From contig JABJJW010000011.1 of the NCBI GenBank assembly GCA_018660685.1, positions 62,001-126,000 of the forward strand: DNA of 64,000 nt, read 5' to 3'. Shown here piece after piece: positions 49,813 to 52,673 of this stretch (the first letter of the stretch is position 1; each line of letters begins with the position of its first letter). The notes under the pieces were generated by a model that made no database searches, was not told the DNA's origin, and saw only the letters and a list, made by a program, of their open reading frames with translations. Source of the stretch: Flavobacteriales bacterium. Its GTDB lineage: Bacteria; Bacteroidota; Bacteroidia; Flavobacteriales_G; Salibacteraceae. The position numbers and the translations under genes were made by a program.

Positions 49813-49821
49813 GTGTCACTG

Positions 49822-49894
49822 TGACCCGGCTGGGGCTCGAACCCAGGACCCATACATTAAAAGTGTATTGCTCTACCAGCTGAGCTACCGAGTC
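49822..49894 (-). tRNA. tRNA-Lys (anticodon TTT)
   Basis: Cloverleaf is complete on the minus strand: acceptor GACTCGG / CCGGGTC (one G-U), D arm AGCTCAGCTGGTAGAGC, anticodon stem ATACA / TGTAT with loop CTTTTAA (anticodon TTT), and T arm CTGGG-TTCGAGC-CCCAG, discriminator A. CCA is not encoded. It has its own promoter and terminator. Confidence 0.95.
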
Positions 49895-49975: not shown

Positions 49976-51457
49976 TTATCGAGGATTGTTCCAGAAGTCG
50001 AGGGCTCTACTTCCCACTTGTCCTACGTCAAAAGAATTCAGGTTGTTGATGTCCATCACCTCCTGACTTGTCTGAGGGTCATCAGTAACCAGTGGATTAG
50101 CGCTTCTTGTGCTCAACTGCAGATACCACGCGGCGTCAAATGGCTCACCAGGCACATTGGAATGGATCAATACGTAATCATTCGTCACGATCGTCTTGTC
50201 CACAAAGGCAAATTTGGCGTTGGCTCTTTTGGGAAGCTTGTAATACTGCCAGATTTCATACGGATAAGTGTTGGGTTCGCTCCTTTGCATTACCCTGGTT
50301 TCGGGTTTTCCATAGGTCAGAAATGTCTTTCCACGATCTGTGGCACATGCGTGCCGCCTTTGGATGTCGAACGTCCTTTCCACGAAACGAATTTTCTTGT
50401 AATACATTTTCCAAGATATCTCAGGATCCAATGGGTTTCTCTTCTGCCAGAATTCGTAAATAAACCTCTTTAACTCCGTGGTGTCTGCCTTGTTCCAGTT
50501 TGCTTCGAGGTACTGTCGCTCGACGGCCGTTCCTTGATAAATATGGCAGTAGCTCATGTTTCGAATCGAGTCTTCACCGGTTATTTTATGGACGAAGGTT
50601 TTTCCTAAATCCTCATCGCTCAAGGAGTCAGATTCAGTCGGGTGACTGTGCCTTTGCATGGCAATTGCCTTTGTGGCAATAACATTGTTCGTTCGATCGC
50701 GCGCCTCCGCTTTGACAATATAGTGTCCCGTTGGTAGATTTTCAATTTGCCATTGATGATACACAGGGAGAACATGCGCAGTCGTCATTCTCTTCATGGT
50801 GTGATACTGATCAATAGGTGTATTTGTTCGCAGGTCGATGATATCGAGATTCAATAAAAACGGTTGATTCTCGCCGAGCTTACTATCCACATTGTAGAGT
50901 TCGAGATAGAATTGAGCGTCCAAATTATCTGGGGATTGGTACGAGCTTATTCTAGGAATCATATCGACATTTCCCCGAGTGAAGATGTTTGGCTTCGTCG
51001 TTTTAACTACTTCCTCAATGAAAATGAAGTCGCTGAAAAAAGGTTGATCGTCATTCTCATCAATACTGACTGGTTGGGAGAACTCAATCGAGTCATTTCT
51101 ATTATTTGCATCAATCAGCTTGATGTTTAAATTGTATTCTCCTGGAATGAGATAGAATCGCTGGAGGTCGATGAAGTCACGAATGTTGTTGAGAGAGTCG
51201 GTGAATGGACTCCGGATCATGTTCTTCGAAAACTGGATGATGCTTTCTCCCTGTTTTATCACATAGGTAAGCTCAATCGAAGCTTGCCATCCAGATGCAC
51301 CTTGAATGTACTCAATGGATGACGCGTTGAACTTCATGTGAGCTTCAACGTAAGTTCCTTCTTCCGGAGAATTTAGGATGTAGTGATTGAAGTATGCATC
51401 GATACTCCATCCGAAAAATGGAGTCAAACTAAAAAGAAGAACTACTAGTCTTTTCAT
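49976..51457 (-). CDS. GWxTD domain-containing protein
   Basis: 493-residue secreted protein (signal MKRLVVLLFSLTPFFGWS) with an N-terminal beta-rich half (IYLIPGEYNLNIKLIDANN-like, TGHYIVKAEARDRTNN) and the GWxTD domain in the C-terminal part (RFIYEFWQKRNPLDPEISW, FVERTFDIQRRHACATDRG, TYGKPETRVMQR, YEIWQYYKLP). The family is restricted to Bacteroidota and relatives; function unknown. The upstream 700 bp is non-coding. Lies downstream-convergent with no gene but close to tRNA-Lys on the same strand. Confidence 0.82.
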   Translation of the reverse strand: MKRLVVLLFSLTPFFGWSIDAYFNHYILNSPEEGTYVEAHMKFNASSIEYIQGASGWQASIELTYVIKQGESIIQFSKNMIRSPFTDSLNNIRDFIDLQRFYLIPGEYNLNIKLIDANNRNDSIEFSQPVSIDENDDQPFFSDFIFIEEVVKTTKPNIFTRGNVDMIPRISSYQSPDNLDAQFYLELYNVDSKLGENQPFLLNLDIIDLRTNTPIDQYHTMKRMTTAHVLPVYHQWQIENLPTGHYIVKAEARDRTNNVIATKAIAMQRHSHPTESDSLSDEDLGKTFVHKITGEDSIRNMSYCHIYQGTAVERQYLEANWNKADTTELKRFIYEFWQKRNPLDPEISWKMYYKKIRFVERTFDIQRRHACATDRGKTFLTYGKPETRVMQRSEPNTYPYEIWQYYKLPKRANAKFAFVDKTIVTNDYVLIHSNVPGEPFDAAWYLQLSTRSANPLVTDDPQTSQEVMDINNLNSFDVGQVGSRALDFWNNPR

Positions 51458-51599
51458 CTACATCAAATCTACTTCCAATCTACCAGCCCACAATCAAGAT
51501 TGAGTGAGTTGCAATTCGAGCTAAGGGAAGTTAACAATTGTTGATAACCATATTTGAAAACATGTGAGTTTCTTCTACCCCAATTGTTCATTATAATAG

Positions 51600-52146
51600 A
51601 AATGGATATCCTATTATTGACTTGTCAACATGGGATAAAGATCCCAACTCACCTTAGGGTGATAGGCTGACAGGACCAACGTTCTTTGAAGTGTTACCGA
51701 AGGGGTTTTAACCTAGAATCTGAAACGCAAGTTTCTAATTCAACATGGCTAAAATCTGAAAGTCTGTCTCTCAATTATCTTTTCGGAGTTAAATGGGGCC
51801 AAAGGCAGAACAGAAGGTCATTACAAAGTAGGCCGCTTGATGAAAAGAGGGCGGAGGATGGCGAAAGTCCTAATTCAATTCAGTTTCGGCTGTATTGTTA
51901 GATTGCCTGGGACACCGTCCTAGGCAAGTGGCTATCGCACCACGCTGAGCGTGGAGCTTTCGAGTTTCTTTCGGGAAACAAAGGCAAGAGTTACCCCCGG
52001 GTTCCTTTTGTGAGTCATCTAGCTGAAGTGTGTAGTTAATTCTACGCCAGTTGAATTTTTGGAAAATGTTGTATGGTCGTTCCTTTACCGGATTGCGATC
52101 AGAGAACCGGAAAGCGATTTCGAAAGAAGTCGCTTTCTTTCTTTTA
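51600..52146 (+). ncRNA. candidate large structured RNA, about 500 nt
   Basis: Between the GWxTD gene and ridA lie about 710 bp without protein sense. On the plus strand it has consecutive hairpins: GGGAT-AAAG-ATCCC (51632-51645), CACC-TTAG-GGTG (51650-51661), GAAAC-GCAA-GTTTC with a GNRA loop (51722-51735), 51877-51896, an 11-bp stem TTGCCTGGGAC / GTCCTAGGCAA (51903-51927), CCACGC-TGA-GCGTGG (51940-51954) and a UUCG-loop stem (51964-51979). A 12-bp C(GAAA)G terminator with T-rich tail ends it at about 52146. GNRA and UUCG loops support the plus strand. Conserved RNase P, tmRNA, SRP and group II domain V signatures were not found. 5-prime end uncertain; a CATATTTG at 51549 and TATAAT at 51592 are possible promoter parts. 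Confidence 0.55.
52110..52146 (+). terminator. strong terminator of the candidate large RNA
   Basis: 12-bp stem GAAAGCGATTTC / GAAGTCGCTTTC (one G-U), GAAA tetraloop, then TTTCTTTT. T-run only on the plus strand, although ridA ends 24 bp further on the minus strand. Confidence 0.8.
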
Positions 52147-52169
52147 TACCCGTTGCTAACTGGAGTGAT

Positions 52170-52634
52170 CTACTTAGCCGCAATACAGCTAATCTCCACA
52201 TTCACACTTTTAGGAAGCGTTTTTACCGCAACTGTCTCGCGCGCAGGAGGATTCTCAATGAAATAGCGTCCATAAACCTCGTTGACCTCTCCGAACAAGG
52301 ACATGTCACTCAAGAAAATCGAACATTTCAAGACGTTAGAATAATCAAGCTCGGCTGCCTTAAGAACGGCCCCGATGTTTTTCATAACCAATTCAGTTTC
52401 GATTTGAATAGAACTAGTGTCGAGCTCACCTATTGATGGGTCGATGGCGATTTGGCCACTGACAAAGAGCATGTCTCCGAATTGAATAGCTTGAGAATAC
52501 GGTCCAATTGGTGCCGGGGCGTTGTCGCTCTTGATTACTTTTTTCATGTGTTTCGGAATGGTATGATCCGGATGATGTTGAATTGTACAGCCAAGTAACG
52601 ATGTTACCATCATTCCGAATATTATTGACCTCAT
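52170..52634 (-). CDS. RidA-family protein with lipoprotein signal
   Basis: 154 residues from ATG 52634: MRSIIFGMMVTSLLGC is a lipobox, then a linker, then the YjgF/RidA domain (APIGPYSQAIQFGDMLFVSG, LKAAELDYSNVLKCSIFL, NPPARETVAVKTLPKSVNVEIS). The substrate-binding Arg (ARETV) is kept. RidA hydrolyses reactive enamine/imine intermediates, normally in the cytoplasm. An internal ATG (MKKVIKSDNAPAP) would give a cytosolic form. A minus-strand TATATTTG box (52641-52648) rules out ATG 52661 and sits 6 bp before 52634. Confidence 0.82.
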   Translation of the reverse strand: MRSIIFGMMVTSLLGCTIQHHPDHTIPKHMKKVIKSDNAPAPIGPYSQAIQFGDMLFVSGQIAIDPSIGELDTSSIQIETELVMKNIGAVLKAAELDYSNVLKCSIFLSDMSLFGEVNEVYGRYFIENPPARETVAVKTLPKSVNVEISCIAAK

Positions 52635-52640
52635 TGCGCT

Positions 52641-52648
52641 CAAATATA
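52641..52648 (-). promoter_or_regulatory. ridA promoter -7 box TATATTTG
   Basis: Exact TAnnTTTG on the minus strand, with only 6 bp to ATG 52634; implies a leaderless or near-leaderless transcript. Confidence 0.5.
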
Positions 52649-52673
52649 GATTTTTGACCATCTCGACTTTCTA

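Follow-up and report, generated by a model that had tools for sequence, protein, structure and literature searches.

What is encoded by the 712-bp gap at 51458-52169 of the window (the whole 64,000-nt stretch of DNA that was analysed), which a preliminary description took to hold a structured plus-strand RNA of no known class? Few bacterial RNAs are both large and structured, and among the ones with assigned jobs several are ribozymes or core ribonucleoprotein (RNP) machines. The locus is read here, with a probability of about 0.7, as a free-standing gene whose product is a large structured non-coding RNA that would be conditionally expressed and would act in trans.

The gap, its hairpins and the known RNA families

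The ORF list places the gap between a gene for a GWxTD-domain protein and a gene of the RidA family. A blastn search of 60 relatives recovered homologues in three further Flavobacteriales assemblies of uncultured organisms, G009 (contig CALSRJ010000003.1), G004 (CAJXNO010000065.1) and G015 (DIYJ01000004.1, UBA6057), at the same place as in the window's own genome (G000), so that the conservation in relatives that the preliminary description had left to be checked was found. All homologues lie between GWxTD and RidA genes, the former divergent and the latter convergent; in G004 (L020 1772-2874) two genes, one SIMPL/DUF541 and one encoding a 122-aa protein with no Pfam match, lie between the RNA and RidA. 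The comparison thus comprises four sequences from two genera. The main features of the locus are:

49976-51457, minus strand: GWxTD-domain protein gene (Pfam PF20094), divergent neighbour, present in all RNA-positive genomes
51530-51548, no strand: promoter-side palindrome GTTAACAATTGTTGATAAC, possibly an operator bound by a dimeric regulator, aligned in the four RNA-positive genomes
51624-52146, plus strand: inferred structured RNA (alifold z -8.2, conserved synteny)
52110-52146, plus strand: intrinsic terminator, a 12-bp stem (52110-52137) with a T-run to 52146, kept in the four genomes
52170-52661, minus strand: RidA / L-PSP family gene (Pfam PF01042), convergent neighbour

The gap holds no believable ORF, as had been claimed. 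The longest plus-strand ORF that runs from a start codon and is wholly contained in it specifies 71 aa from a TTG start, and two more plus-strand frames begin in the gap and continue into the RidA gene. Reading frames are not conserved between the genomes, and the best conserved block is not coding because single-base indels between genomes fall within it.

The ordered plus-strand hairpins of the preliminary description are present. Folding of 51580-52150 yields -179.9 kcal/mol on the plus strand against -153.8 +/- 7.3 for shuffled sequences (z -3.6; none of 100 shuffles as good), and the minus strand is weaker (z -2.6). The three tetraloops are also in place, GCAA in the hairpin GAAAC-GCAA-GUUUC at 51722-51735, UUCG at 51964-51979 and GAAA within the terminator hairpin; the tetraloop sequences themselves are not conserved, and relatives have hairpins at most of the equivalent positions. 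The 12-bp terminator stem, followed on the plus strand by a TTTCTTTTA-like sequence, stands as first described and retains 12 of 12 pairs in all four genomes, with some pairs changed on both sides. The bounds of 51580-52150 given earlier required correction on the left, where conserved structure begins at about 51624-51649 and the promoter-side palindrome extends the locus to about 51530. The 5′-end of the inferred RNA is uncertain, between 51550 and 51650, and its 3′-end corresponds to the T-run of the terminator.

The Rfam scan that the preliminary description had proposed assigns the locus to no known class. At 51450-52200, none of the 4227 families of Rfam 15 (OLE, ROOL, GOLLD, HEARO, group I and group II introns, RNase P, tmRNA, SRP and 6S included) scores above its gathering threshold. 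A permissive scan of the locus gave as its best match BTnc231, at the terminator end, with 20.8 bits against the 80.4 needed, and two further matches at chance level. Across the whole window the sole Rfam 15 match is a tRNA-Lys at 49822-49894; this tRNA-Lys (TTT; 49821-49894, minus strand) lies just downstream of the GWxTD gene. Literature searches returned no description of the RNA itself, no paper on any RNA of the clade and no paper on GWxTD.

The earlier view that the RNA is neither RNase P nor tmRNA agrees with the presence of both RNAs elsewhere in the same genome (RNase P RNA at G000:C26:24312-24639, 197.5 bits; tmRNA at G000:C22:214983-215380, 153.9 bits), and ARAGORN detected no tmRNA in the 64-kb window. 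There is a loose likeness to RNase P RNA in words such as GAGGAAAGUCC and ACAGAA, which occur in the opposite order, but kinship through these shared words was rejected, as the locus, aligned locally with the RNase P and tmRNA loci of its own genome, showed no significant similarity to either. The model for 6S RNA of Flavobacteria (RF01685) has no match at the locus. That 6S-Flavo model also has no match in G000, G003, G004, G006, G009 or G015, with the controls silent too, and the 6S RNA of the clade may be divergent or simply missed by the model.

Conservation and architecture of the fold

The comparison of four genomes carries the case for a conserved fold. RNAalifold on the plus strand of the four sequences reaches -67.7 kcal/mol, where column shuffles that preserve gaps and conservation average -28.7 +/- 4.8 (z -8.2; 0 of 200 as good); the reverse complement has z -3.3. 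Two-sided compensatory changes are found in many helices, including the long-range helix H2 (5′ strand 51684-51693, 3′ strand 51819-51828), which covaries from C-G to U-A. The parts of the RNA, all on the plus strand, are:

51649-51662: helix H1, UCACC-UUAG-GGUGA; G015 keeps 5 of 5 pairs, three of them changed on both sides
51673-51693: conserved block 1, GGACCAACGUUCUUUGAAGUG, 72-77% identity to each relative
51703-51757: helix H3, GGGUUUUA (51703-51710) with UAAAAUCU (51750-51757), apical hairpin 51722-51735; two-sided changes at 5 of 9 pairs
51763-51809: helix H3b, UCUGUC (51763-51768) with GGCAGA (51804-51809), from sequence reading, partly counted
51811-51934: core junction, CAGAAGG..UUACAAAG, from models R1/R2 and pair counts
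51940-51954: helix H9, CCACGC-UGA-GCGUGG; the hairpin differs from genome to genome, with complete pairing in all four
51955-52105: variable 3′ domain with the UUCG hairpin (51964-51979), 28-45% identity between genomes

The core junction is closed by pairing of GUAGGCC with GUGGCUA (51928-51934) and contains hairpins at 51835-51852, 51855-51871 (AGGAUGGCGAAAGUCCU, nearly invariant), 51876-51897 and 51903-51927. By hand reading, H3b is UCUGUC/GGCAGA in G000, UCCAC/GUGGA in G009, AUCGG/CCGAU in G004 and CUCCGG/CCGGAG in G015, and H9 in the same order is CCACGC/GCGUGG, CCUGC/GUAGG, CGCUGC/GCAGCG and ACCAGAC/GUUUGGU. Because MAFFT misplaces some hairpins, counts for single helices are partial.

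For the 5′ half (structure A4, with variable internal loops excised for model building only), 89.8% of cells are paired and 8 pairs are changed on both sides where shuffles have 2.9, and 0 of 500 shuffles reach 8; when the register is slid, pairing drops to 33-52%. For the core (structure A2), 84.7% of cells are paired, with 8 two-sided pairs against 4.3 in shuffles, a less extreme result (6 of 500). Both structures derive in part from the same sequences, so that the slide control is biased towards them, and support from four sequences stands below R-scape grade. Within the core, the hub at about 51811-51871 (alignment columns 475-540) shows 91% identity to G009, 88% to G004 and 72% to G015, and the RNA core is better conserved than the neighbouring proteins (identity to the window's GWxTD protein is 50% in G009 and 39% in G015). 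Taken as a comparison of sequences, conservation and covariation in the three relatives support the predicted fold, and with it the claim that the plus strand encodes a structured RNA, about 500-600 nt long, outside Rfam. That the hairpins arose by chance in a non-functional spacer would suit a family of only four homologues that is missing from most relatives, but the compensatory changes, the z of -8.2 and a core conserved above the neighbouring proteins refute this explanation in practice.

Distribution, possible mobility and probable loss

All four genomes are recovered with covariance model R1, at 103-143 bits, and again with R2, at 113-135 bits. The RNA is present in 4 of the 42 genomes of the order, in one copy each. 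Beyond these four, R1 and R2 returned nothing credible in 35 genomes of the family, 42 of the order, 295 and 395 of the class and 395 of the phylum, in searches where weak matches can be lost once more than 40 genomes are covered, and absence from a draft genome may reflect incomplete assembly. Phage and plasmid records contained no match to the RNA. When 41 genome and 11 viral contig stretches were scanned with a DNA pattern, only the three Flavobacteriales contigs matched the structure in full. The scanned set did include a Phycisphaerales contig with the exact 19-nt core hairpin GGAGGACGGCGUAAGUCCU of the model consensus (L068 4763-4781), a match that is probably due to chance because the pattern used to fetch the DNA already required most of its letters. 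Four weak matches were dropped: two inside genes (L022, in a protein gene, and L028), one that straddles the boundary between two successive genes (L164) and one that is intergenic and has no block-1 motif (L027).

A large, hairpin-rich element with a patchy distribution could be the remnant of a mobile element, for example a group II intron or a HEARO/omega-RNA-like guide, and an eroded group II intron had been offered as the alternative in the preliminary description. The RNA occupies the same site in four genomes of two genera, however, in one copy per genome, and keeps its own terminator; no Rfam intron family matches, and in the relatives other hairpins stand in place of the GCAA hairpin of the proposed intron. 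The ORF list and Pfam reveal no reverse transcriptase or nuclease gene adjoining the locus, the features of group II introns and HEARO elements (such a gene, and mobility) are not seen, and there are no phage genes beside this fixed chromosomal site. The intron alternative is not supported by these results, and a mobile origin of any kind is very improbable.

In three RNA-less relatives (G002, G006 and G011) the junction between GWxTD and RidA is short, about 90-140 nt. G011 has the GWxTD-RidA pair twice, on different contigs (L034 and L042), possibly through contamination (4% reported). In a tree of GWxTD proteins G015 branches first, with the fork above it drawn open (support 83/84), and G000 and G009 are interspersed with RNA-negative genomes. 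This pattern fits one origin of the RNA followed by several losses, with gene transfer to the same site a less likely explanation. Given a neighbour-protein tree that agrees with a single origin and recurrent loss, the RNA is dispensable, its absence from most relatives being observed and its loss read from that tree.

Proposed expression and role

Three known groups of RNAs invite comparison. OLE RNA is about 600 nt long, with an intricate structure and islands of highly conserved nucleotides (PMC9723947); the locus RNA resembles it in size and in an intricate fold with conserved islands, but OLE belongs to Gram-positive extremophiles and anaerobes, is a member of a protein complex and has no model that matches the locus. 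ROOL and GOLLD are large ornate RNAs, one ROOL being 659 nt and many GOLLD RNAs more than 800 nt, and ROOL was non-essential in one strain (PMC12286853); unlike the RNA at this fixed chromosomal site, which their models do not match, they are encoded by phages or prophages and often lie near tRNA islands. 6S-Flavo and Flavo-1 are candidate structured RNAs of Bacteroidetes (PMC2864571), the same phylum as the locus RNA, but 6S-Flavo has a model of only 108 positions and neither matches the locus. Covarying conserved structure, a free-standing gene and a terminator are all found here, as in large trans-acting non-coding RNAs of the loose kind of OLE, ROOL and GOLLD, and the locus RNA is best read as comparable in type to these, while matching none of their models.

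Transcription, action in trans, binding of a partner and regulated expression are what we infer for this RNA. Transcription would start at a promoter around 51530-51600, although a standard promoter was not recognised at the locus, and would proceed rightwards as far as the terminator (52110-52146). The fold that the comparison supports has a hub at which the long-range helix H2 gathers a two-hairpin domain (H3 and H3b); next come the junction closed by GGCC/GGCU and holding four hairpins, a further hairpin, the variable 3′ domain and the terminator. The folded RNA would most likely act in trans, its invariant unpaired stretches binding a protein or another partner, in a mode that may be likened to OLE-type ribonucleoproteins or to RNA assemblies of the ROOL/GOLLD type. 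A role as a leader is not indicated, since both the terminator and an opposing gene separate the RNA from the next gene on its strand, with two extra genes intervening in G004; because the RNA ends before the opposing gene, a leader or riboswitch is unlikely.

Unpaired AGUA, GGCGAAAG, UCUGA and ACAGAA are invariant or nearly so in and around the multi-helix junction, and these loops around GGCC could be the active or binding site of a ribozyme or ligand-binding RNA rather than a scaffold for protein. This seems improbable, as no Rfam ribozyme or riboswitch family is matched and a ligand-driven switch would have no same-strand downstream gene to control. More ambitious than the reading of a trans-acting RNA gene, and put forward tentatively as a doubtful prospect, is that the locus represents an undescribed class of large RNA with its own architecture, a novel activity and a dedicated regulator, confined to a small uncultured clade of Flavobacteriales; that activity, if real, would be catalysis, an RNA-only assembly or a dedicated RNP unlike known families. 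The RNA has no Rfam relative, and its architecture already has good support from the four genomes; it offers structural work a defined target and raises the question of what a dispensable yet strongly constrained RNA does.

The trans-acting RNA would probably not always be on, with a dimeric transcription factor acting at the palindrome. The palindrome lies 5′ of the RNA in all four genomes, as GTTATCAACAATTGTTGATAAC in G015 and TTATGAACAATTGTTCATAA in G009. It is near-perfect over 19-22 bp (L021 and L019 equivalents). The G000 copy is imperfect, and that of G004 is only half conserved. Between G015 (arms TTATCAACA and TGTTGATAA) and G009 (TTATGAACA and TGTTCATAA) the two arms change together, symmetrically as expected for a dimeric DNA-binding site, and the conserved palindrome suggests control of the RNA by such a factor. 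Alternatively, the RNA could act in cis on the divergent GWxTD gene, with the shared promoter region and palindrome regulating that gene and the RNA forming part of the switch. In 4 of 4 RNA-positive genomes the gene directly next to the RNA on the divergent side is that for GWxTD, and the palindrome sits between the two starts, but the GWxTD gene persists in G002, G006 and G011 with neither the RNA nor the palindrome core ACAATTGT upstream of it. The strongest conservation, moreover, falls 200-400 nt from the shared promoter, within the RNA structure, and a switch would leave this constraint on the distal core unexplained, which makes action in cis quite improbable.

Outside the locus, the four genomes contain a single exact match to the palindrome, in G004, and matches with one mismatch are not clearly above the control count. 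G000, G009 and G015 have no second exact match, and therefore provide no co-regulated genes to learn from. The palindrome arms resemble DnaA boxes (TTATCCACA), which is a lead only.
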